Shown here: positions 7,551 through 54,603 of the stretch, piece after piece
Position numbering within the stretch: the stretch's first letter is position 1
Layout: the number at the start of each line of letters is the position of its first letter
Source: a virus
DNA: 64,000 bases
Direction: 5' to 3' (one strand)
Virus record (IMG/VR): IMGVR_UViG_3300028581_000001
Span: 1 to 64,000 of that record
Notes under the pieces: model-generated
The model's database searches: none
What the model was told of the DNA's origin: nothing
What the model saw: only the letters and a program-made list of their open reading frames with translations
Made by a program: the position numbers and the translations under genes

Positions 7551-8477
7551 TTATTTAATACGAAATATAAAGTTCTCGTCAATAGTTTGACGTAGAACAA
7601 CTGACATGCAATTCAATACATTATTATTCCATCTCTCTAATGAAGTTGCATAGTAACTAGGATCACCTCAACCTCAAGGACTAAGACTTCAAACAGATTG
7701 CTTATGTCAAAGCAAATCATTATTTAAAGTTTTAAAAATCGCACGAACTCAAGATTCAAGAGTAGGAAATGAAACTTTATTTCATCTATCATTGTTGCCT
7801 ACATTACCTATATTATTTTTTGTTTTAGTATGTCTTCAGATTGTAGTGTCAGCCCGAGATATACATAACCCAAGTTCTTTCTTTATCTTAAAATCTTTTT
7901 CTGCACGAATCCAGTACTCAACTGGAACCTTAGCATTCAAAGTAATTTCTTCAAAAGAAGAACCATATAATTCAGACCTAGGTTTTGTTTCTCAAAAACT
8001 TGTGTAACCCCATCAATCTTTAAATACTCTTTTAGGAATTATCTTTTTGATGGAGGGTACTGGACTTATAGCCCCTGTTGCAACTCATGAATTAATGAAA
8101 CCAGTAAGTGTAGATCAAGTAGAAACTATATTAAAGTTAATTCTTATTGTATTAGAATTAATCTTATAAAAAGAATCAATAGATTTCACAATTCATGTTT
8201 GACTATTTCATTTAATTATTGCTTCTATATATATTTGATCAGCAATAACAGATTGTAATTTAGCTTCTAATTCTGTTCTTGTATTTAAAGTAACAGATAA
8301 ATCAGCAGAAGCTTGATTAATAATATTAGCTCTTATGTATTCAGGATTGCTAATCCTATTTATATAAGAAGTTATTGTAACAAAAGTATAAACAAAAACA
8401 AAAAGAACAATAGTAATTATAGATTTTATCTTGGCTCATGCGAGTAAGTCTATAATTTTAATTTTAAAATTTTCCAT
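7551..8477 (-). CDS. Membrane-anchored lysozyme-like protein (putative peptidoglycan hydrolase)
   Basis: 308 residues. One TM helix at about residues 19-38 (IITIVLFVFVYTFVTI), a coiled-coil-like segment to about 110, then an extracytoplasmic domain. The last 90 residues carry KNNIGNVGNNDRG, LESGVRAIFKTLNN, SPGGGGDPSYYATS and ERWNNNVLNCM, a pattern I associate with lysozyme-like/glucosaminidase-type muralytic domains (NNxGNVG...G...). The family call is by recall of this pattern and is not certain. It heads a minus-strand run with two small genes downstream; a lysis or cell-entry role is inferred. Confidence 0.6.
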
Positions 8478-11916: not shown

Positions 11917-12357
11917 TTAATATTTATTAAGAAGTAAAGTAAGTTTATCAATAGAGTCACTAAGTAAATTAATAGACTCTTGACATCACAATTCTAATCA
12001 TCTTAGTAATCATTGCTCGAAACATATCTCTTCAGTAGTAGACATAGCTTCAAAGTTTTCAAGCATGTCTTCTGCATTTTTAAATCACCAATCCTTAGGA
12101 TTAGTTCTTCAAAGAATATTCTTACAATAATTTTTCTTATCATTCTTAACAGAAAGTTCTTGTAACAATCTTAAGTCTTCTAATAGTTTAGGCAATAAAG
12201 TATTTATTAATATCTTATTTGACATAAGAGATCAACATACGAATTGCTCATCACTATCATTCTTCATAGCTTTATCATAAGTATATCAATAATCTTTAAT
12301 TGCTTTAAGATCTTCATTGATATTTTCTGATAATGATTTAACAAATTTATTTATCAT
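11917..12357 (-). CDS. Hypothetical helical protein
   Basis: 146 residues, start MINKFVKSLSENINEDLK. Mostly helical and charged with four Cys (FVCGSLM, NYCKNIL, EICFEQG, LGCQES). No family recognised. One base separates it from the next gene. Confidence 0.7.
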
Positions 12358-12595
12358 AGCTCACTTGATTAATAATACAATGATCTGCAGACATGGTTAA
12401 TACTGCAGGCTTATCACAATGATTCACTCTTATTGAATCTTTATCTATCATCATCCATTCAATAGAATAATTATCATACTTATTTGATATCCTTTCACAA
12501 AGACATCATTCTTCATCTTGAAGATTAAATTCTTCTTTAGTATTAGAATATAAATCTATCTCTCAAGACTGAAAATTTAAAACAACTGTAATCAT
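12347..12595 (-). CDS. Hypothetical protein
   Basis: 82 residues, start MITVVLNFQSGEIDLYS. Several Cys/His (EEGCLCERI, RVNHCDKPAVL, SADHCII) could bind a metal, without a classical finger spacing. First gene of the 12595-to-9858 run, downstream of promoter-like copy 5. Confidence 0.65.
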
Positions 12596-12618: not shown

Positions 12619-12666
12619 ATACAGGGGATTTTATACCCCTGTAATAATTCAGACTTTGTAAACAAA
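12619..12666 (-). promoter_or_regulatory. Hairpin-flanked TATAAAA promoter-like element, copy 5
   Basis: Arms ACAGGGG and CCCCTGT (7 bp) around attttata, then ctttgtaaacaa. Drives the gene run beginning at 12595. Confidence 0.85.
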
Positions 12667-12668
12667 TC

Positions 12669-12824
12669 TTATTCAAATTCTTTAACGAACCTAGAATTAC
12701 AAGAACATCATTCTGTAAAATAAGTTCTAGAATAATATTCTGATTTTTTCCCTGCATTGAATTGCGATACTGGTCTATGGTATCACATAACACGAGTATA
12801 TACTTCACATCTTTGTCTCTCCAT
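12669..12824 (-). CDS. Stand-alone NrdD C-terminal (glycyl-radical loop) protein
   Basis: 51 residues. CEVYTRVMGYHRPVSQFNAG closely follows the C-terminal tail of anaerobic ribonucleotide reductase NrdD, whose RVxGY glycine carries the catalytic radical, and FNAGK...R is the conserved following segment. The radical-site Gly is itself a TGA codon here. No catalytic NrdD subunit is in the window, so this may complement a host or distant phage NrdD, much as YfiD-type spare glycyl-radical domains repair pyruvate formate-lyase; that role is inferred. An SCNSR near the end gives only a weak Cys pair. Confidence 0.75.
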
Positions 12825-12885: not shown

Positions 12886-14292
12886 CTACTTCTTAGTTTT
12901 CGTCTTGACCTTTATTTCTTTTGTTACATCACTAGATTTAGTGGCAACAAAAGGTGTAGCCCTTGCCATTATAACCTGAAGTCAATCACATTCATTATCA
13001 ATTATATCATAGTTCTTTTGACTAATCAATCATGCTTCATCAATTAATATGAAATCTAATCATAATTGTTTGACGAATGCTAATGATAATCTTATCTGAC
13101 ATAGTAATCTATTACCTCAAGATAACTCAGTATATGGTTGTCTATTCAGCATTATCTGAAATGATTCAACTACATCTCAATTAGCTTGTGTCTTGAATAA
13201 TTCTATATCAAGTCAAAGACCTTTCACTTTATCTTCAAGATCTTTAGTGAATTGTATCTTATACTTCTTAATGAATGTAAGAATTTCTTTATCATTAAGT
13301 TCACCTAAAGCTTTGAGTTGTGCTTCCTTAATACCAAGTTCTCTCTTAGCAGATTGATATTCATTAACCATATCTTTATCCACTTGATTAGATTGTCTAA
13401 GTATCATCTGTAAGAATCATGCCTTCTGATCTATAGTCATAGGATTCAAAGGTTCAGGAACAATGTTAGTAGGTAACAATGGAATTGATTCAAGATCAGC
13501 TAACTGTCTTTTTAATTCTTTACCTTTAGCATTGATTCATTCTACAACTTTAGTATATTTATCTGAAGATAACTCAGCTCAACAAGCAGGACAATTCTTT
13601 TTAACATTCTTAAACTCTTCACGAAGATCTTCTATCTTTGTTTTAAGATTAGTAATGTTAATCTGATTCCTATTGTTAGTAGCAACAGCTTCATTGTTTG
13701 CTAACTGAATAGCTATACGATTACCATTGTATTTACTTTCGTACTCTCTATACTTAGATTCTATCTCTGAAGAATTATCTTCTATTGATACAGGATTCTT
13801 TTCAAACTTAGTAACTATAGATTTGAATCTAATTATATCATCTAAGATAATATCTTCTTTACCTTTATTCTCTTTCAACCTAGCATTCAATTCTTTCTCC
13901 AGAGTTGGTGTCCATCATGGAACATTATCTTTCATGTATCATTCAAAGTCTACACCTAACAGTTTAACTAATGTTAATCTTTGTTCAGGTGTTGACAAAT
14001 TAAAGAATTCTCATGGTAGTATATATTTAATTAATGCATTAGGTTCTTGATCTAATCATATCCATAATGCTTTACTTAACATATATACTTTATCTGGAGT
14101 ATGAATCTTAGCAGATCATGACGGAAGAGTTCTAAGTCAAGGATACTTCTTAGAATACAAACTCAATAATGTATTAAGTATTGTTGACTTACCATATCCA
14201 TTTGGTTCTTCTATTAGATTAATTCATGGTCAGAATTCTCTTTCCAATTTTAATCAGAAGTCTGGATAGTTTATCTCTATCTTATTAAACAT
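12886..14292 (-). CDS. SMC/Rad50/SbcC-like ATPase (phage recombination family)
   Basis: 468 residues. Walker A EEPNGYGKST near residue 30, a long coiled coil of about residues 145-385 interrupted by a CPACG zinc hook, the ABC signature ELSGGNRLLC, and Walker B LDFILIDEAG. This is the layout of SbcC/Rad50 and T4 gp46. Such proteins work with a metallophosphatase nuclease (SbcD/Mre11/gp47) in DNA end processing; a calcineurin-like phosphoesterase sits at 60548-62041 but is far away. One glycine of the signature and that of ILIDEAG are TGA. The protein is shorter than bacterial SbcC, as is common in phages. Confidence 0.85.
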
Positions 14293-16378: not shown

Positions 16379-18793
16379 TTAATGTTTAACATATAAATTT
16401 TCAAATGTAGTACAACGAGAAAGTCATACATACAAAAGTTCTTTTGACATTCACTTAATATATGTTAAGCATACATTATCTAGTGAAAGTCATTGACTAT
16501 TATGTGAAACAAATCATTGACATACAAATGAATGATCTCATTCAATTTCTATATCATATGTATTTCTAATTCATATATTTTCTATAGAAACTATTTTATC
16601 ATAATAGAAATTATTATCTAATGTTTTATTTAATACTTTTAATATAAATCATTTTGATCTAGCAAATGAATCTAAATATATACATTGTTTATAAGAAAGA
16701 TTTTTATATCTTAAAATAGCTTTAAGTTTTTTATCTTTATTATATCACAATCATTTAATACATTCTTTAAATTCATCTATTATTTTATTTCTATTAATAA
16801 CAAAATCAATACTAGATTTTCATTTAGATATAAAATTAATTAATCTATCTTGTTTATATCAAACATTAAATCATAAATATTTATTGAATAACATAACATT
16901 TATTCAAGTTATATTTAATACATATGCTTGATTATGTTTATCTGAATATTTATTTAATTTATTAATATAACTTACTATTCAGAAATCTAATAATAAAAGT
17001 TTAATCTTATTAATTAAATCTTTTGAAATAGATACATATCTAATATTTCAATTCTTAGAAATAGATCAATCAGTATCAAATAATCATTTAAGTACATTAG
17101 ATTTTATTAATCAATTAGATTTGAAAATTCAATCTGGTATTGTTTTATCTTTTCATGTACAATAATCTAATCATATTGTATATAATAAATCTCTAAACAT
17201 TTTAGAAGTAAATATAATTGACTTCGCTTTATTATCTTTTTTTCATTTTAATAAATAATTAATTCAAAAATTAGATAATAATTCACAACTACTATTTAAT
17301 ATATGTTCATCCATAGAAGTTATATCAATTCTTCAATCATCTTTATAATTATAAGATCAATCTCAAATTAAAACTCAAATGAAATATGCGAAATTACTAT
17401 CTATATATTTTGTTATATATATATCTTTAGATCTATTTCATAAATCTGGTTTGTGTAATTCAATATCATTTCAATCTAAATTAATAGTTCTATTCATTAT
17501 AAGATAATCTCATATATTTAATTTTCAAGATTCAATATATTCGTTTGTATGATTTAATACTGATAATAATCTATGTTCTTTAGTAGTAATAATTTCTCAT
17601 CATGATTGTGTAGTTATTTTAATAACTTCTTTTTCTCATGTAAATTCTTTTCATATTACTTTCTTAAAAGAAAATCAAGTATCAACAGTTTGTCATAGTT
17701 GTATATCTTTAATTGCAAATAATCAATCAGTTGTTTTTACTAATTGATTTTCTTCAATACATTTATGGATTGTCATAGCCCATGAAAGTTTCAATGGTAT
17801 CTGATTATAAGTACCAATAGTTATTTCTGTAGTTCAATCATACTGAACTTCTTTCCATTCTTCATAACCTATCTCAAAGTTACAATCGAATCTATCAGAA
17901 TGAATCTCAACTGTATTGGAATTACATTTAACTACAGTTCAAAGATCACCATTGACTAATCAATTCTGTAAGTTCTTAGTAACCATAATTCTACATCATT
18001 CTTTTAAATATAGTTCTTCTGGTGTAATACAGTTCTTAGAATTGAACTTACCATATATATATCATTTGTAAATATATTCTTTTGCTTTAACAGTTTCAAA
18101 TCTTTTCTTATTAAAAGCATCTACCATATTATTAAATGGCATTAAGTGAACACTATGCTCATCTCAATATCATCTATTGAAATCATATATTGAACCCATT
18201 TTATTATCTCTAATATTATTAAGTAGTTCAACAAAAGTATTATCTTTTTGTCTACGTACTTTAATTAGATTAAGTTCTTTGAATCAACTATAACAAAATG
18301 CATGATCGAATGTCAGCTTTCAATACTTAGTAACAAGATCTTCTATCTCATTCTTATCCTGTTCTGTGAAACTACCATACACAGGTGGCAATTGATTTGG
18401 ATCTCATACTAATATCATCTGTATTCAACCAAAAGCTTTCTTATTTCATCTCATTTTCTGAAGTAAGTAATTAATATAATCCAGATAGTCTGGTCCAACC
18501 ATTGAGATTTCATCAATTACTATTGTATCTATCTCTGGCCAATCAACACTCTGTTGTTTGATGGGCTTATTATGTAAGTAGTTACCGAACATCTTAAATG
18601 TAGAATGAATAGTAGCTCATCATATATTTATTGCTGCAATTCAAGTAGGTGCAACTACTATTACATTCTTTCATTTAGCTCTACTTTGTTTAATGAATTC
18701 CTGAGTTGTATATGTTTTACCAGTTCATGCTTTCCCTGTAAGAAAACAATTAACTCAACTTAACATATGTTCAAGTGCTTTATCTTGTGTCAT
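16379..18793 (-). CDS. Pif1/RecD/Dda-like helicase precursor with an intein
   Basis: 804 residues. Extein: P-loop GKAGTGKT (20-27), APTGIAA, ATIHSTF, Walker B DTIVIDEISM (Asp94-Glu95), VGDPNQLPP, then motif-V region LSWAMTIHK. After that Lys the sequence becomes an intein (residues 345-765) and resumes with SQGLSLDNVCLTY and LSRCTT at the C-terminus. Spliced product about 383 residues, the size of Dda-type 5'-3' helicases used in phage replication and recombination. Neighbours (HslV-like peptidase, PD-(D/E)XK nuclease) are within 11 bases or overlapping. Many motif glycines are TGA. Confidence 0.9.
16499..17761 (-). mobile_element. Intein with LAGLIDADG homing endonuclease
   Basis: 421 residues in-frame inside the helicase. 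It starts with Cys (CIEENQLVKTTDG), has an N-terminal block B-like EIITTKEHRLL, two dodecapeptide motifs FIGVLIGDGS and LKGLFDTDGS, and C-terminal blocks NTYDIEIEGDHSFVCQGFVS ending in His-Asn before a Ser extein residue. These are the residues needed for splicing and for a two-motif LAGLIDADG nuclease. Insertion is exactly at the helicase motif IHK/SQG, a conserved site. Confidence 0.9.
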
Positions 18794-41217: not shown

Positions 41218-44200
41218 TTACTCTGGGCTAAATGGTAATCATTTTGTTAATCATTTACTAGTACGTACTGGATCTTCAAATCATGTACCTAAAAACTTTT
41301 GTCTTATTTTTTTGTATGGTGCTTTAAGATTTATATATTTTTTTTCTGTTTCGTCAACTTTTTTCTTAACGACATACATAGGTATTATTCATTTAGATTG
41401 ATAACCTTGATAAATATTTGTAATAATTATTCAAGCATACTCTTGATTCATTTCAAATTTAGCAGGATTAAATCAGAATCATTGTGGCCTAAAATCTTGT
41501 TTAGCATTTAGATATTCTTGTGGATCTCTAGATAAATTTCATTCTTTTCATGGAATAAATTTTCTTATAGGATCAAATTGTTTTGAAAAATTTGGTCTAG
41601 CTCAAGAAAAAGCATTGCTTTTAAATGGAGATTTATAATCTCATGTAGCAGTTCTTTTTCATGCTGTTGCATTTAAATCATTAAGATAAGATTTAGAATC
41701 ATAATCCATAGATTCTGTAGAAACTTTAAACATCCAATTAGTTATTTGTTTCTGTGCATCTTGTGTTAATGTTTTGAATCTTTCATTATCATTAAATAAA
41801 TCATATTGAGATTTACTCATTCACATAATTACTGCAGCTTGATTAGCTAGTTTTGATTTCTTTTCCATGAAAGGATTATTTTCAATTTGATTTAAGAATT
41901 TTAATCAAACTTCTATTCATGTCTCATTTCATTTCAATCATTTAAATGCTAATGCGTATTTAGATTGCAATGTTGCTACCTTAGTATCTCAATTCTTCAT
42001 TACATTATTAACTAGATATTCTGTTGATACCAATTTCATTATATCATTCTTTGCATATTTAAAATTTTCTGCTTCTTCAAACTTAGTAAATAGATCTCAA
42101 TAATTTTTTTGTACATCTTTCTCTATAATATTCATTACAGAATTATTATCTAAATTAAGATACTCTTGATATTTTAATAATGCATCTCTAGTTATTTGAT
42201 TTTCCTTTTCAGAAGTCAATGCTAATGTTTGCTTTCAAAAATATTGTTTACCAGTTATAATTCAATCTGTTTTTTTAGCTTCTTCCAACTTTAATTGTTT
42301 TTCCTTATTGATTATCATATAAAGAAATAACGGTGTCTTAAGATGAGTATTCATATCCATTAATGCTAATGATTTTAATAATCATTTATCTACTCAATTT
42401 ACTGAAACTATTTGCTCTAAAGTTTTTCAAGTTTGTTTTTCTAATTCTTTATTAATTTGTCACTCAAGAATACTCATAACTTTTTCTGGAGTAAATTGTT
42501 TACCAGATTTATCAGTTAATATTCTTTTTCATTTTTCATCTAATCTATCATATCAGCTATAATATAATTGATTCAAAATATCTTTTGCATTAGCTTCTTG
42601 ATCTAATGTCATTGAAGTTCATTGCATTCATAGTAATGATGAAAGATTATAATCTTTATCAGTAAATCAAATTTGTCATCACTTTAAAAGTTTTCAAAGA
42701 TTTGGATCTTTTTGTATTCTTGTTTGTATATCTTTAGAAAGATCTGTTAATACTGAATATGCAATGTTATCATTATCTCATTTTACTAATGAGGTAAAAC
42801 CAGATAATACTGATTTTATAAATCATTTATCTTTATAACTTGCAAAATTTTTTCATTCACTTAGTTCTTTAAACATTTCATCTCAATATGTATTTCATCA
42901 TAATCATAATATTCAAAGATTAGAATCTTGAGATATTGAATTAAAATAATCATCTGATTCTTTCATTCAATTAAATCTTATTGAAGCAGTATAATGTTGT
43001 TTGGTTGCATATTGTAATGCTTCAAACATATCTCATTTTCATAATACAGATTGTGCTACATATCTATCGTATGCTGTATTAATAAATGCTCATTGTTTAA
43101 ATAATCTAGTCATTCTATCTAATAATGTTTTAGTTGTATACGCAACTTGATCAGATTTAGTTCAATATTCTCAAGCTGTATTCCATGCATTTAATTGTTT
43201 ATCATAAATAATTCTTACAGATACAAATGCATTATTAAATATTTTTTGAAATTCTCATATACTTAATCTATCTTCATTATCTTTTTCATATTTTTGAAAC
43301 TTAAGATATATTCAAGTTGTATATAGTATTTGTTTAGCTAGCATTGAATTATACATTGCCCAATCATGAAAGTGTGCTATAAATCATGCAGTATTTCATA
43401 GATATAATTGTTTCATTCAAGTTAATAGAGCTGATTCTTTTTCTATTAATGTTGCAGCTTTATGAAAAGACCATCACATAAGATATGAAAAAGACTTGAC
43501 TGCGAATTGTGTAACAAAATTATCAAACATTAAATATGAATCTTCAAATATTGTTCATGAAGCTATTGCAGAAGATGATACAACTCATCATCATGAGTTT
43601 GCAAAGTTTCTTCTTACTGCAGATTGAAATACATTTTTAAATTCTTGTCATCAGTTTTCAAATGCAAGATTAATAGCTTTCATATCTTTAAATTTAAACT
43701 GTTCCATTGTTTGTAATACGGCTGTAATCTTACGAAGATTCTCTAGTGGCCGATCATTAAATCATAACATATTATTTATAAATGAATCTACCATTTCACC
43801 TGCTCTTTTAGCAGAATCTTTTCACACAACCTTTCAGGCTGCATTTGTAGCTAATTCTTTTGTAAATTTAGATATAGCTTGTTGTAAGAATGATTGATTT
43901 AAATTTTTTCAAAATCATGTACCCATCATTAATACATCTTCAAAATCCATAAGTCATTGTGTCTTTATTAATCTATATGCATCATCTAGTTTATCAGAAT
44001 TTTTTGCTGCATATGCTCTTAGTTCTATATAATTTGGCAATATTTGTGACATTCATGCTATAATACTATTCTGAGTTAAGAAAGTTGAAGCAGTTCAGTA
44101 TGTCATATTATAATGGAATCATTTAGCAAATCATAATACTTTATCTAACATAGATAATCAGTTTTTAAAAACTGCTTTACTCATTACTTTAATTTCAAAA

Positions 44201-47200
44201 TCACTTATATCATAACTCATCATTTCTCAATTTCTATTATATGCCATATTTTTGGCATTGTTTTTTAAATATTCATGAAAATCAGCTTCATCTTTTATTC
44301 ATATTAATTTCAATGCAAATTGTGCATCTCATTTATGAGCTTCTAATAAATCAGTTACTAATGTAAATGGTGCTTCTAATTTTGAATAAATAGAATAAAC
44401 ATCTTTTTTAAATAAAGAATTTATTTCATTTAATGCAATTATAATTGGATCAATAACATTAGTTTGATAATCAGTTAATATAGTTTTAAATTTTGCATCA
44501 TCTAATAATTTTAATATTGATCATTTAGAACTTATTCATTTATCACTTTTCATTTTATCAATAGCTATATCTAGATTTGGTCTAGAGAATACTCAATCTT
44601 TTGATTCTATTAAATAATATGAAAACTTTTTTTCTATATCTGAAATATCTTTAGCAGATAATCAAGTTTTTTTCATTTCTCTATATATAGTATCTCATGT
44701 ATTAAACCAATTATGTGAGAACTGTCTTACATGTTCATCACTAGCATTTGATATTATTCTTTTAGATCATAAAGAAATTTCTTTTTCAACTCAATTTTCT
44801 GTAATAGTTCTAAAAGTTTGTCTTTCTCTATTTAATAATCATTGAATAGTATCAAATGTTGTTAATAATCTTGGTGCAAATTTATTGAATAGAGATTGTT
44901 TAGTTAATTTAATTCAATCTTTTGCTAATGAAACTGCATCAGTAAACTCTGACATAATTTCATTTACTGCCTGAGTTGATCTATCTACTGTATTAAAACT
45001 AAATTCTGGAAATACATAGTTATCTATATCTTGTATTTCTACTTTATTTGAAATTATAGAAGAATCTATAATCGGATCTTCAAGTAATTTATTATTTTCA
45101 ATTTCATATATTGTTTTTTTAGTACTTTCAATTGACGTCATTACTTTTTCAGCTCATTCTGTATCTCATGATTTTTGTAATAATTCTAAATCTGCTTCCA
45201 TTTCTTTTAATAGTTTTGGAAAATATTCATTATCAAATTTATCAATTCACATATGTTCTTCAAAATTGACATCTAATCATATATTTTTTAATCTATCTCA
45301 TTTTATATTATCAGAATCTCATAGGAATTTTAATTGTAAATTATTATTTATAAAATTAAATATTCTATTCTCTCATAATGTAATAGCATAAGCTGCTCAA
45401 ATTCATTGGTATTCTTCTGGTAATACTTTAATATATTCTATTAAATCTTTTTTAATTAATTTTTGAGCTTCTTTATTTCATTTCTCATCATATATATTTT
45501 TAATCTTTTTAAGATAATCTAATATAGTAAATTTTCACATAGATCATGTAAATTCTTGTTTAAGTATATCTTCATAATCTTTTACAAAAATATTATTATC
45601 TTTAATAAAACTATTTAATCTATCTTCTCTTTTAACTAATCATGCTATTTTTGTTTTATTATTTTCAATTTGCATTTCAATAGTTCATGTATTCCATTTT
45701 TTTATTTTATAATTTAATAATTTACTTTCATTGCTTTTTAAGAAAAATTTTTCATTATTTAATAATTTTTGAGTATCTATTAAGCTGCTTCTGGCAGTTG
45801 CAGTATCTAATAATCATAATTTAATTAAAATATTTTCTTGTAATTCATCTTTAGAAAAATTATATATTCAATTATATGATCATATATCTTTTGATATATA
45901 TCACATAGAATATCAATTTACATTTTCTAAATCATTAAGTATATCAGTTAATAATTTATTACTTTTATTATCTTTAAAATTTTTACATAAAAATATTATA
46001 TCATTAGAAGTATTGATTGCTTCTATATATTCTCATATAGTTGTTTTTCAATTAAACATTTCTTTATCATTGAAAAATGATTCTATTATTTCTCATTTAT
46101 GTCAAAGAGTTCATAATAATAATAAATAATTTTGTTCATCTTTATTAAATACTGCATGAGTATATCAATTTTCTTCAGTAACTATTTTTCATATTTTATA
46201 ATCTGGACTTTTTTCTAATAATTTAGTTATTTTAATATAAGACCTTTTTAATTGAGATAATTTTTTCTCATCCATTTTTATTAACTTATATCATTTTGCT
46301 AATGGAGAAATTAGATCATGATAATAAATTCATATATTATTATCTATTCATGCATATTCTAATAAATCTTTAAACCAATTTTTATCGAATTCTGTTTTTC
46401 CTGAATTACCAAAGTCTAATGTTAATTGTAATATAGAAGCAGCAGAAGCATTATATTTTCTTAAATCTCATGTAAGAAGTTTTTGTCATATATTTTTATA
46501 TAAATCTTCTATTGTAATTGTATCAAGTAAGTTTGGATTTTTTAAATTAGATGGATTTAATTCTGATCTAATTTTTCTTTTTCAGAATTTAATTTTATCA
46601 TCTCATGTTAATGATTCATATTTATCAAATACTTGTCTTAGTATAGATATTGTTCTAAGAGTAGCAGAAACTATTCATACTGATTGTTTTGCTTCAAGTG
46701 CTACTGCTCTTGATTCCCATAATGAAACTTCTTTAGGAAATAATTTATCTAATTCATTTTTTAAATAATTAAATAATTTTGGTGCTTTAGTTTCTAGCAT
46801 TGCTTTATCAGTTCATATTCATCACTCAGATACAACAATTACTTTTCAACTTGCTTTTGCATTGATAATTGCTTCATCTACTTGTTTTTTAAATATATCA
46901 AAATCTGCATCTGTAAAATATGAACTAGCATCTGTTCATCTATTCTTTTTTGTATCAATTCAAATTGCATTTGGTAATCATCTTATAACTGCTTGTGTTG
47001 AAGTTGGTACATGTTTAGTATTTAATCTATCGTCAGTATTATCTCAGAATAAAAATACTTTATCTTCTATATTCTCAATATCAGATCTTTTCCAATGTCA
47101 TTTATATTTTTCATTTCTTAATCATTTATCTACTTGATCAGCAATTATATAATTATTAAGATGTTCTCAATTTTTAAATTCATCTATAAGATTTCTATTC

Positions 47201-50200
47201 TCTGATAACTTTATTCAGAAAATAGATTTTCAAACTATATCTCAAAACTCTGATTCTGCATTAATAAAGAATACGTGATCTCAATCATTATCTCATTCAA
47301 GTTTTAGATATGTTGTGATTGGATTTGTTACTACTTGATCTCATCACATATTTTCATATTCTTGCCATAATTTTTTTCAATTATTATCTACTTCATCTGA
47401 AAATCTAATTCTGTACATACCAAGATTATATTCTGATGGTACAGGATATCTATATCAGATTGTAAATAATGGTTCTTTAAAATTTTTAATTGCTTCAATT
47501 TTATCTTTATCTGCAACTGTATCTAACTTAGAAAGTTTATCTTCTATTATTCATTTAACTAATTGTGAATCTTTAGATACTATAATTTCTTCAGCTGTAA
47601 TTTTATTAGTAGATTCTCTAATAAATACAGAGGTTCATTTATCTTGTGGTTTATTTAATATCTCATCTACTTCTGATAAGAACTGTTTTAATCTTCATCA
47701 TGCAACTGAATCTGTTAATGTTCATCTTTTTACCAATCAAACAACTCTAGATATTATATTATCAATATCAGAAATATTATTAAAATTAATATTAAAATCT
47801 CATAATGAATTAATATTATTTTGAAATGATTTTTGAATTGCTTTTAATTGAAGTTCTGTCAATGCTTTTGAATATTCATATCATAATCTTGACTTAATAG
47901 AATCTGACAATGTAGTCATATCATCATCTGATGTTGATTCAGAAGATGCATTTCTAAAGAATGATGTATCTGTTCATTCTACTTCTCATAAAACTTTGTA
48001 TAGTTTTCAATCAATTATTATATCTTTAGGTGTATCGAATGTAACATATCATCATTCTAATTTTAATGATGATTTTCAAATAACTACTGCGTTATCAAGT
48101 TTGCTTCATTCATATACTATTTCTGCAGAATTAAATAATGTTTTTCAAAGCACTCTACCATTATCTCATACATCTCAATAGAAGTGATCCTTGAATTGGA
48201 ATACATCTTCTCAATCTCATCATTGAATTCTATCTCTAAGTCTTGCCATATGTCAAGAAATAAATGATGTTCAATCTTGATTATCCTTATTAAATGCTGA
48301 ATCTAAGAAACTTACTTGTTCATCTGGATCTGTTATAGATACTAATCTTTTTCTAATATATTCTGGAGTATCTTTATTTGCAATAGTTCTATCTACGTTA
48401 ATTGTTTTATCATCATTGTATTTAATCCAACTATTATCAAATTGTTTTGCTAATACTAATGTTTTAAGTGGAATCTTAATATCATCAAATGTTGAAAAAT
48501 TTGACATGTTAGCAGACTCTCTTTTACGAATGTTATTAGTTTCTAAAATAATTCATCTTCATTCTCTTTTAATTCAGTTAGATTCTTTAAATTTATTTTC
48601 AATAATGTTAAGATCTTTTTTAAAAGCTTCATACGTAGAATACTTTATATTCTTAAATTCAGATGAAAATTTATCCCAATCTATTTTAACTTTTAATCCT
48701 GTATGATTAAAGTATCAATTCTTTAAAGCATATTCGTATTCGAATAAATCTAATTCTATTCTAGATTTTTCTATATCTTTTATTTTACTATCATATATAG
48801 AAAGATCTGATCTATATAACGTAAATACTGAATCCTTGTCTCAGAAGTTTCAAGCAAATACATCTCATTTTCTAATATGTAACTGTTCAATTACTCTAGC
48901 TCTAAGATCTTTTAAAATAATTTTTTTCTTATTTAAATAACTTATTAAATCTACTGAAATAAGATTTGTTTGATTATTTATTAATGCTGTTATGAATTTA
49001 TAAATTTCTCATTGAGTAACATATGCATAATTTATATAATTTTGTTCTATTATTCAATATTGACTTTTAAAAAAGTTATCAAATATATTTTTTAATGTAA
49101 GTTCTGATCAGTATTTATCAATCTTTCATGACTTAATTATTCAGAATTTTCATCAATCAATTCATCTTAAGAAATTTACATTCATTCATTTTTCAACCAT
49201 TTGTTGAAGCTGTATAATGTTTTCTGTATATTTATCTGGCTCTACTTCATCTTTTAATGCATAAGTAAAATCATCTACTTCTTCAATGGATACGTTAATA
49301 TCTGCTTTAACTCTTTCTCATTTAGCATTAGTATAGTCATTTGATTTATTTCATAATGCTCTAATCTTTTTGAAAAGATCTTTACCTTGTCATCTTTTGG
49401 TATTATTAATATCCTTAAGTAATACTTCCATAATATTATCAGCATCATTAATAGATACTTTATATCATGATATATCTAGTATTTCTTTTATAAATGCTTT
49501 ATATCAATCAAGTTTTCTTTTGTTAATATATTCTCATTTAGCATCTTTAAAATATTCTTTACTATTAAGATCTTTTATTAAATCTGAGAATTTATTATCT
49601 CATAAATTAAATAGATCAGAAGCTGATAAATCATAGTTAATATCTTTTTTAATTAATTTTGGATCTATTAAATATTTTTTTCATTCTAACCAATCTTTTA
49701 ATATAAATGGTCATCATAATATATCATTAAATGATTTATTAGATTTATTTATTAATTTATTATAAATATCAATTGATTCTTTTATTTCTAATCAGTATTC
49801 TTTTATTAAATTGTCTATAGTAAATTCTATTTTTCTTGGTTCATAATTTTTTATTACTTTTACATTTTTTCAATTATGTTCTAAAAATTCATTTTGTGGC
49901 ATATCATAAATAAATATTTTTCAATCTTCTTTTAATAATGCTACTTTATGATATATTGATTCTCAAAATAAATTTCATTTAATTCATACATCTATTGGAT
50001 ATACATCCATTCATTCTATTAATAATTTATTAATATTAAATTTTGATGTATAACTACATGGTAAATTATTATATGAATATTCTTTTCCTATCGTTATTAA
50101 TGATTCATTATCTTTTCAAGAATATGCCCAGTCTATAATTGCTTTGTTAATCTTTGGCTCTTGTCATGTCTTTGTATTATTAAAGAATGCTACAAGCTTC

Positions 50201-53200
50201 TTAATTATAGGATTATTCTTTTTAGCGAACTCAGCAGTCATTGTATCGTTTATAATATCTTCCATTTCTTTTAAAATGAAATTCTCATCAACAACATTTA
50301 ATGATTGACATTTACTATTAAATTTTTGAAATATATATTCTAATACTTCTTTATATACTTTTGATCATCATAATGCTATTGCTTTATTAAATATATCTAT
50401 TTTTTCTAATAATCATTTAGAATTTCTTAAATCAGAAATTAGTCTTGTAATTCATTTTAAATCTTCTGTTGTTAATTGTCAGAATTTTCATTTCATTTCT
50501 ATATCTTTTTCAATTGATTTGGTTAAATCTTCAACTTTTAAATCTATTGAATCTTTAAGTTTTGGTTTTAATTGTGAAAATGTTGCAAAATTATCTGAAG
50601 TATTTTTAATATAATCAACTGTAAAATTATTTATAATTGAATCTGTATAATTTGTTTTAAATTTATATTTTTTTAAATTTCATAACAATTCTTTTTTTAA
50701 TCACTTTTCAATTAAAATTAATTCTTCAATCTTTTTTTGTAAGTTTTCTTTAATTATTTTATCTGGAATAGCTTTCTTTTGTTCTTTTAAAGTATTAATT
50801 CAATTTTGATTTTTCTTAATCAAATTATTAATATTTATTACATATCTCTTCCATTCTTTTTCTACTTGTGGTTCTAATGTTTTTGCTAAAGAAGATTTAA
50901 ATACTTTATCTCATAATAGAGTTTTAGATAATGGTTCTATTAATTTAGGACTAAGTAATAAATCTGAGAATGCTTTTATGTATTGATCATCCATTTTTGG
51001 ATCTACTCAAATCTTTTTTATAATTGCATCTATTAATGGTTTATGTTCTGCATATTTATATGCAATATTATAAATCATTGGCTTAACTAATATTCATATA
51101 TTTTCATTTGCATTTACAAAAATATTATAAATAAAATTATTTAGAACTTCAAATTCTTTTGTATCTGGTTTTATATCTAATATATGTCTAAGTGTAGCAG
51201 TAATATAATCTTTATCTAATACTCAATCAGTAAACATTCAAGTTACTTTAGAACTTGCATGTATTATCCTAGAATTTTTTATTCAAGTTTCTAGATCAAA
51301 TACTCAATCTTTTTCTCAATATTCATAAATAGATCTCATTAATGCTCATACACTCTTAGCATAATTAGAAACTTTATAAATCATTTTTCATTCTTGAACT
51401 ATTTTTCAAGAAAGCATATCTTCAAACTCTGATTGTTCAGATAATTCTTTACCTGCTGTTAAATACATTATGAAATTTCTTCATCATTTTTTATCTTCAA
51501 TATATCAATATGTAAGATTTAATAATCATTCTTCTCTTGAAAAATAATTAATAAGATCTTCTCATGGTACTACAAAATTATTATCTTTAGCAGCTTGAAA
51601 CTCTTTCATTTCATTTATGAAATTTACTTTTCAAAAATTATTTTCTCAATAAATTTCATCTACAACTCATTTAATTAATTTTCATATTTCATTCATTAAT
51701 CAAATCTGTTTATCAATTGGAACTTTACTAACAAATCACATAACTTGAGATCAAGATTTTTTATCTAATGTTCAATTCTTTCAAACTATTGTTCTAATTG
51801 TTTGTTGTATATTATTTTCAGGTACTCAATATGCTTCTCATAATTTAGTTATTGTTTGTTTTCTTGATATCATTACGTTCTTTATTTTCTCTACAAATAA
51901 ATCTGTTCATTTATAAATATCAAATGCTGTTCATTTTTTAAATTTATGTCATTCAATAATCATATCATCTTTAATTTTAACTTGTCAGTTTTTAATTAAA
52001 TCAACATAATTTTTTTTAAAATCTTCTATATCATTAAACTTAATATTAATAACTCTTCAAGTATCTCATGGAAAACTAACTTGTATAGATCTTACATATT
52101 CTACATTAGAATATGCATCCTGTATTGCTAGAGTATTTTCTCTTATAATATCTAGATATTCTGTTGCTTCATCTTTACTAGGTGCTAATTTAATTTGTTG
52201 TATAGCTTGTTTAATTTCTATAACTTTAGTTTCATAATATGAATCATTTTTTGGTGGTGTAACCTTTCTATCATAAGTTCATTTTCATGTTGCAACATTT
52301 AATGCATCATTTAAATATTTATCTTGCAATAATTTATTTACTTCATATTCTTTACTTCATGATTTTAAATCATATCATTTTAATACAGCATCATCCATTG
52401 CATCAAATTGTCTTCATGTAATTCATGTAACATCTTCCAGATGTAATCATATTCATTCTGCAGTTACTATTTCTTTTAGTCTTCATTCTTCCATTCATAG
52501 AATATTTTTAGACATAAAGTTAAATAGTTCAGCAGGTTTATCAAAAATTTCTTTTACTTTTGCAGGTGAAAAAACTGTATATGCAATTTCTTTTCATTTC
52601 TCCATTAATTTAATTGCACTATTTCTATCTAGTTTAATATTATTTTGTGTGTCTAGAGCCTTAACAAAATCATCTACTGCAGCTCAGTCTTCCTTATAAA
52701 TATAATTATACATTATACTATTCTTTGCTTTTTGTGCAGTTTCATAACCAAGTGATCAAACCTGAATTATTCATTTTCCTGCTCAATATATTGCTGTATC
52801 AAATACCAATCATGTTATCATATTAAAGTTTTCTGATACATCTGATGGTGCTTGCATCATTGTATTATCTATAATTGCATCTCATGGTGCTCATTGTAAT
52901 AAACTATTAGTAGCTCATTTCATTCATTTAGTTATTTTAGAATCCATTACTTTTGGAAATACTTTTAATATGCTTTCTCAAAATCAAATATTTGTTTTAA
53001 TTAAAAGTCATATTCATTTATCTGCTACTAATGCTGCTCATTTTGTAATTCACTTTGTTACTAATCAGGTTCATGCTGTTGCTGTCGCTAATGATAATAA
53101 TGCATCTGGATTATATGCTATTACCGATAGAAACTTATCTAGGTTTCATTTGTCTGCAGTTATTAAGCTTCTATATTCTTGTCTAATATAATGTGGAACT

Positions 53201-54603
53201 TCATCTTTATCATTATCATAAACCTTATCAAAAATTCTTTCAACTGTTGCAGCAGAATATGAATATGCATCCATTAATGATTTAAAAGTATCAATAGGTC
53301 AAGATAGAAATCTATCTTTCATTTGTTTTAAATTTGTTGCTTGAGATATAGATGTTATTAATGATTCTTTAGATCTTAATTTATCTTTATCTTCTTCGGA
53401 TAAAGATTGATATGCCTGCTTAATTGCTTTCTGTCTAACTTCTTCATCATTTTCTTTATTATAAGATGGATCATTTTTTAATATAGCATATCTTCTAACC
53501 ATTTCAAGATCCATATTATATCATACATCTGATATTTCTTTAAACTTTGCAGCAATTTTTTCATTATCTGGAAGATCTTCCATTCATAAAAGTTCTAGAT
53601 AATATTGTTTATCAGTTGTCGCCTTTTCTACAATCTGATCTTTAAGATTCATAAAAGTTGTTCATCATATTCATACAATATTTTTTGCATCCTTAGCAAA
53701 ATCTTCATCAAACTTTTCTGACATCTTATTATTTAATTCTCATATAAGAGTAAAAGTATCATTTCATTTTACTAATGCATCTTGTTTTATTTGTATTTCA
53801 TTATAAACTTCTTCTCATGTTTTTTCTCAATTTGCTTTAATAGAATTATTTAAATAATTCTTAAGCTCATTTTGTTTTTCAGTATATTCTGTTTGATATC
53901 ATCAAATGGATTCTTGTAATGTTGCAGCTTGACTTAATATATTTGATTGTGCAAATGGATCTAATAAATCTAATTGCATTTTTTGAAAATTAGAAAAATC
54001 TTCTTGATCAGTAATTGTTGTAATTCATTTTTCTGATAGATATTGTTTTTCAACTTGTTTACTAAAATCTCTATATTCTGTAAATCTAGGATCTACACTT
54101 GATATATCATGAATTTTTTTCTGTCTATCTCTTAATAAACTTTCATATTCTTTAACTTTAGCTTCAAAATCTTTTTGAACTATTCATTCATTTAAAGAAT
54201 TTTTAAGTCATGTTCAATTTAATACATCACTTCATTTACTAATTCACATTCAAGTTAAACCTTTTACTAAATCCCATGCCATTCATAATCATCATAGATT
54301 TTTAAATCTATTTGAAAGTGATCTATCTTCATCTGATATCTTAGGCTTTTCTCAATATTTATCTTGAAGATCATAATATTCTATTGGATTAACAATTCAA
54401 TCCCATAATCATGCAATTCACTTTTGTTCAATTTTATTTTCAACTCATTCAATTGCATCCTTTCCCCAGTTAATAACTGAAGAAGCAGTATCTGCTACTG
54501 CATCTACTGCTTGTGTTCATAGCTCAACTGCTCAACTAGCTACATTTGAAATTCATTCTCATACAGCTTCAGCTGCATTTATAATACCTTCTAGTGGTGT
54601 CAT
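41218..54603 (-). CDS. Giant polyprotein with DPBB RNA polymerase core (putative virion RNA polymerase)
   Basis: 4,461 residues in one frame; I read every line of 41218-54603 and saw no in-frame TAA or TAG. Around residues 2382-2450: IGYRYPVPSEYNLGMYRI, VTNPITTYLKLEGDNDGDHV. DNDGD (Asp2438, Asp2440, Asp2442) matches the catalytic DxDGD of double-psi beta-barrel RNA polymerases, preceded by the expected R.P segment. Upstream, DGTSFISGHMARLRDRIQGG (about 2110) resembles another conserved block of phage RNAPs. Residues about 2515-2625 resemble a phage-associated FGDN...GIGT...APK module. Segments near 502-545 are hydrophobic. crAss-like phages carry similar giant RNAP-containing proteins beside the terminase; packaging in the virion is inferred. 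Confidence 0.8.

Follow-up and report, generated by a model that had tools for sequence, protein, structure and literature searches.

Translation of the minus strand with genetic code 25, in which TGA is read as glycine, identified a gene for a 51-residue protein, MERQRCEVYTRVMGYHRPVSQFNAGKKSEYYSRTYFTEGCSCNSRFVKEFE, in the window, which is the whole 64,000-nucleotide stretch of DNA analysed (Table 1). The original prediction had placed an NrdD radical-loop mini-protein here, and this is borne out by the code 25 reading frame and by a match to the Pfam family NRDD; the strand, absent from that prediction, is minus. The match (E 1e-7, above the gathering score) covers only positions 531-562 of the 562-position model, and NRDD was the sole Pfam family found for this protein at E up to 10. 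Likeness to the PFL radical domain of the GrcA/YfiD/Y06I type was absent in the same search. The protein contains the R-V-x-G-Y loop located at the known radical glycine in the NrdD radical domain, the C-terminal end of PF13597, and is a stand-alone ORF with only NRDD positions ~530-562, limits shared by the tails encoded in host-type genomes. The published radical glycine of Thermotoga maritima NrdD is Gly621 (PMC4493059). Alignment to NrdD, which had been proposed as a check, placed Gly14 of the 51-residue protein at this residue: the family profile aligned with residues 612-645 of T. maritima NrdD, with the GY motif on Y-x-R-I-V-G-Y at 616-622, a match that is weak alone (E 0.056) yet in register with Gly621. 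The 51-residue protein and other phage tails also match positions ~110-160 of 179 of PHROG 4132, a phage family with no assigned function; this family appears to comprise NrdD-type radical subunits, a role suggested by the present analysis.

Table 1. Features at and around the radical-loop gene in the window
Feature	Position	Strand	Basis
82-residue ORF, downstream beyond the terminator	12347..12595	minus	ORF reading
Terminator-like hairpin just after the tail gene, TACAGGGG TATAAAAT CCCCTGTA then TTTATTTCTT	12620..12643	minus	2 found vs 0.4 expected from shuffles; both are one structure
Glycyl-radical subunit (NrdD tail) gene, code 25, 51 residues	12669..12824	minus	Translation; Pfam NRDD 531-562; 34/36 core identity to the L039 chromosomal tail
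Gly39, also an in-frame TGA codon, not in the radical loop	12708..12710	minus	Codon list
TGA codon, Gly14, predicted radical glycine	12783..12785 (plus-strand bases)	minus	Codon list; alignment to T. maritima NrdD (Gly621)
SbcC-like ATPase, upstream gene	12886..14292	minus	phrog_77, 2.4e-15

Judged from its sequence this is a real gene, because it has 34 of 36 core residues in common with a chromosomal homologue, its dN is well below its dS, and a hairpin resembling a terminator lies just past its stop codon. A chance match was ruled out by the Pfam score, the conservation and the dN/dS comparison.

The virus record to which the window belongs (64,895 bases) contains a terminase, a Dda/PIF1-like helicase, a primase-helicase and an endolysin. 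An NRDD profile search of this entire record found the tail only, and no body with a finger-loop cysteine barrel and zinc ribbon; a fused NrdD with a hidden body was therefore rejected. The earlier statement that no catalytic NrdD lies nearby thus holds across the whole record, and a full-length NrdD encoded by the phage itself, named beforehand as counter-evidence, was looked for there and not found. NrdG was not present among the ORFs read and the families scanned in the window. Two other genes of this phage were noted: an intein that contains a LAGLIDADG domain interrupts the Dda/PIF1-like helicase (window 16379-18793, minus strand), and a single 4461-residue ORF (window 41218-54603, minus strand), with a sole match to DUF7831 at residues 2500-2616, occupies about one fifth of the phage genome. 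Searches of viral contigs for relatives via the SbcC-like protein or a capsid-region protein found none, with back-translated patterns that are possibly ill-suited to code 25.

Codon 14 is TGA, as the original prediction stated, and it is also true that a standard-code host would stop at the catalytic residue, giving a 13-residue stub. However, the emphasis placed on TGA at this position was overstated. TGA accounts for 922 of 1119 glycine codons (82%) in 27 large phage genes, and its presence at the radical position is therefore expected. The third glycine of the protein is encoded by GGG. The radical glycine is likewise TGA in two chromosomal tails of code-25 Gracilibacteria (L201 and L202), and GGN in the others read. 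A special meaning of, or control by, TGA at the radical glycine was rejected on these grounds. Code 25 is the right code for the virus record, as the P-loop of the helicase comes out as GKAGTGKT only if TGA is translated as glycine, and the large genes are open throughout. A search for tRNA genes found none in the window, so the TGA-reading tRNA is presumably supplied by the host. Since the radical residue is written as a reassigned stop, the phage tail gene might work only in a recoded host.

The closest relative of the 51-residue protein is the tail of Candidatus Gracilibacteria STC_113 (L039), with 80% identity over the whole protein. The gene order at that chromosomal locus is a 733-residue body, a separate 75-residue tail and a radical-SAM protein of the NrdG type. 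The body comprises an ATP-cone and NRDD positions 2-529 and ends after the zinc ribbon CPKHGY..CPKCD, the tail covers NRDD 530-562, and the two are in different frames with stops between them. Further code-25 genomes (L054, L201-L210, L212 and L213) have a split body and tail. L054 gave a first impression of an in-frame fusion, which was ruled out by TAA stops separating body and tail. The finger-loop motif RSMCCRL is present in the body of each of L201-L210, L212 and L213 (12 regions from the class of L039, with TGA used in the body), and an MCCR-type finger loop has been described for class III enzymes (PMC9669993). In code-25 Gracilibacteria the NrdD body thus stops past the zinc ribbon, and a gene of its own encodes the tail of 50-90 residues. 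The suggestion that the mini-protein is half of a split enzyme therefore fits the likely host group, where body and tail genes are separate, with NrdG next in L039. The proposed check for an NrdD body without its tail gave a negative result in the virus record and a positive one in code-25 host-type genomes. The other suggestion, a spare radical domain, is a second version of the same idea, and the two merge if the host enzyme is split.

We infer from the genetic code and the tail similarity that the phage host is likely a code-25 Gracilibacteria bacterium. Tail-less bodies were found in the nearest relatives with the same code. No prophage or spacer link to a host was found, and a terminase search of 288 genomes gave a single distant match. 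Of 117 genomes sampled from the L039 class, 46 had an NRDD match, nearly all of them split, with the body extending to ~530 and the tail as a separate nearby match; clearly fused NrdD was present in two (G453 and G385). NRDD was undetected in the remaining 71, and some code-25 hosts may lack a partner body. In the wider samples described below, three genomes (G097, G115 and G329) have an NRDD body and tail sharing one frame with an in-frame TAA or TAG between them, and are probably split genes.

Split class III RNR appears to be common. A wider sample of the phylum to which L039 belongs contained both fused and split forms. Among 249 Pseudomonadota fused NrdD was commoner than split, and in one alphaproteobacterial order the body ends at ~530-538 in nearly all of 123 positive genomes. 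Body, tail and NrdG occurred together in 74 of 80 genome loci, a set chosen by tail similarity and hence uninformative on the overall frequency of the split; of the other six, one lies on a short contig that holds a body with its tail, and five have an orphan tail. Extra orphan tails were present in three genomes (RGIG4780, RUG13901 and RUG560), all of which have a split body. The alphaproteobacterial MAG RGIG4780 carries three of them (L056, L057 and L113) in addition to a body and the tail next to it. In Cupriavidus necator H16, Sulfuricurvum and Bradyrhizobium the split enzyme is annotated by NCBI as three genes, and NrdDG of C. necator (eutrophus) H16 has been reported to be essential for complete denitrification (PMC2864759).

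We propose, with a probability of about 0.68, that the phage infects code-25 Gracilibacteria and carries, with no body of its own, the gene for the small glycyl-radical subunit of a split class III RNR, with which it supplies the host enzyme. In class III enzymes NrdG makes the radical on the loop glycine, from which it is passed to a barrel cysteine, and oxygen cleaves the protein at that glycine (PMC4493059, PMC3019208). In the proposed host the body (ATP-cone, barrel, finger-loop cysteines and zinc ribbon) and the radical loop would be separate proteins from neighbouring genes, and a separate radical-loop subunit is therefore exchangeable in principle. The phage tail would bind the barrel of the host body, either replacing the host tail or acting alongside it, and its Gly14 would receive the radical from host NrdG. 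The radical would then move to the finger-loop cysteine, leading to NTP reduction. By providing the cheapest and most easily destroyed part, the phage may sustain the oxygen-sensitive dNTP supply of its host. We regard the tail as a candidate fresh radical piece because the enzyme is split in the relatives, the glycine is kept, and phage T4 Y06I, a phage spare radical part for PFL, offers a precedent (PMC8683613).

A narrower possibility is oxygen repair in the manner of YfiD, in which the tail would replace the radical piece after oxygen has cut the enzyme, in hosts with fused NrdD as well. PFL is known to be repaired in this way by YfiD and by Y06I of phage T4, the only validated spare parts, and other glycyl radical enzymes have been suggested as candidates that may have them (PMC8683613). 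The virus ANMV-1 (L190, KP703175.1) encodes at 7686-8120 a longer radical domain, in which CxxC pairs precede the loop, and has no body in its 38.5-kb record; such a version could replace the whole radical domain of a fused enzyme. However, the hosts of the closest relatives have the tail as a separate subunit, for which ordinary supply suffices without oxygen damage, and no extra tail was found in any fused-NrdD genome among the 249 Pseudomonadota, a small sample. We therefore consider oxygen repair of this restricted kind unlikely. A scan for further longer viral tails like that of ANMV-1 found none. Four viral tails (L140, L154, L180 and L182) have a Cys-rich N-terminal stretch before the radical loop, which may give these tails their own metal site.

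Less probable still is a decoy or inhibitor, which would tie up NrdG or the host body and so block the enzyme, redirect it or keep out competing phages. Many phage copies lie in late or lysis regions, as is usual for accessory (moron) genes; their neighbours include endolysin and other late genes, and some were labelled portal and morphogenesis genes from a reading of the sequence. Against this, a pure blocker need not keep the radical glycine, although a close mimic might. When viral contigs were searched with the DNA pattern TRVM-x-YHRP with x open, glycine was present in 99 of 100 distinct hits among the matches listed, a test of the glycine residue only, since the pattern fixes its neighbours. 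The exception has lysine and is an unrelated sequence, not a family member, so the glycine is kept in every family member listed. The flanking loop is equally conserved in viral and chromosomal copies, which also argues against a decoy.

It is very improbable that the tail serves an NrdD body from a part of the phage genome absent from the record. The record is linear and without end repeats, and may therefore be incomplete, but its 64.9 kb hold structural, replication and lysis genes, and the tail-only pattern recurs in ANMV-1 and in 48 of 50 other whole virus records of up to 211 kb. An NRDD match was obtained in 49 of these 50; L037 also has a body, and in the 50th record the known tail was below threshold and no body was seen. 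Body and NrdG were found in the sequence around the tail in one of 107 viral loci (L037). This record is 6.8 kb long and is perhaps a cellular fragment.

Least probable of all is a recently captured passenger gene decaying without function in the phage, as its nearness to host sequence and its single small ORF might suggest, because synonymous change in the core exceeds amino-acid change (dS 0.32 and dN 0.08 against L039, dS 0.80 and dN 0.12 against L205, 36 codons each) and tails are present in many unrelated phages. The phage tail is under purifying selection.

In a tree of tails, which is built on 36 columns only, the window sequence falls among code-25 chromosomal tails (86/81 support), nearest to L039 and not to other viral tails. 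The tree requires at least five changes between viral and chromosomal labels on well-supported branches, which gives an indication of repeated exchange of tails between viruses and chromosomes, most simply by capture from hosts. In Prevotella copri NrdD, binding of dATP makes the radical domain more mobile (PMC11226230). A broader proposal, which we regard as evenly balanced between right and wrong, is that class III RNR consists in many bacteria of two pieces, one of them an exchangeable radical "cartridge", and that phages have repeatedly taken the cartridge to control or sustain host dNTP synthesis, perhaps in versions that stay bound when dATP would loosen the radical domain.

We found no account in the open-access literature of a class III RNR whose radical subunit is a separate protein, nor of a phage carrying such a subunit alone; in passages from a survey of RNR genes in phages, split nrdD refers to intron, intein or fragmented cases (PMC3653736). 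The NrdD enzymes of T. maritima and phage T4 have the same radical loop sequence and glycine position as the phage tail. However, in these enzymes a single polypeptide contains the loop, the zinc ribbon and the barrel, and the T4 genome has the whole enzyme. The YfiD/GrcA protein of E. coli and its phage T4 counterpart Y06I are likewise small stand-alone radical domains, and that of T4 is phage-borne and acts on a host enzyme. In contrast to the phage 51-residue protein, which matches NrdD only, they resemble and repair PFL, and they act on a fused enzyme that oxygen has cleaved, whereas the likely host partner of the phage tail is encoded without a tail. On this analysis the phage tail may be an autonomous glycyl radical part of the phage-borne type already known for PFL, but one that serves NrdD. 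This would name a concrete NrdD counterpart of the spare radical parts, one found in many phages.

The ANMV-1 protein AJP62049.1 is likewise a virus-borne NrdD radical domain without a body, but differs in its length of 144 residues and in its CxxC...CxxC before the loop. The ANMV-1 paper took this protein as evidence for an oxygen-sensitive RNR (PMC4372165). A viral "nrdD" annotation may thus mean a radical tail only, which would change inferences on viral nucleotide metabolism. The split class III RNR operons of C. necator H16 (pHG1), Sulfuricurvum kujiense (pSULKU01) and a Bradyrhizobium ottawaense plasmid likewise encode a stand-alone tail of 50-70 residues with TRVMGYHRPV..FN.GK. In these operons the tail lies between the body and NrdG genes, whereas in the phage record it stands alone. 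The presence of the matching split enzyme in cultivable bacteria (Cupriavidus, Pseudomonas and Sulfuricurvum) makes the proposed role of the phage tail directly testable.
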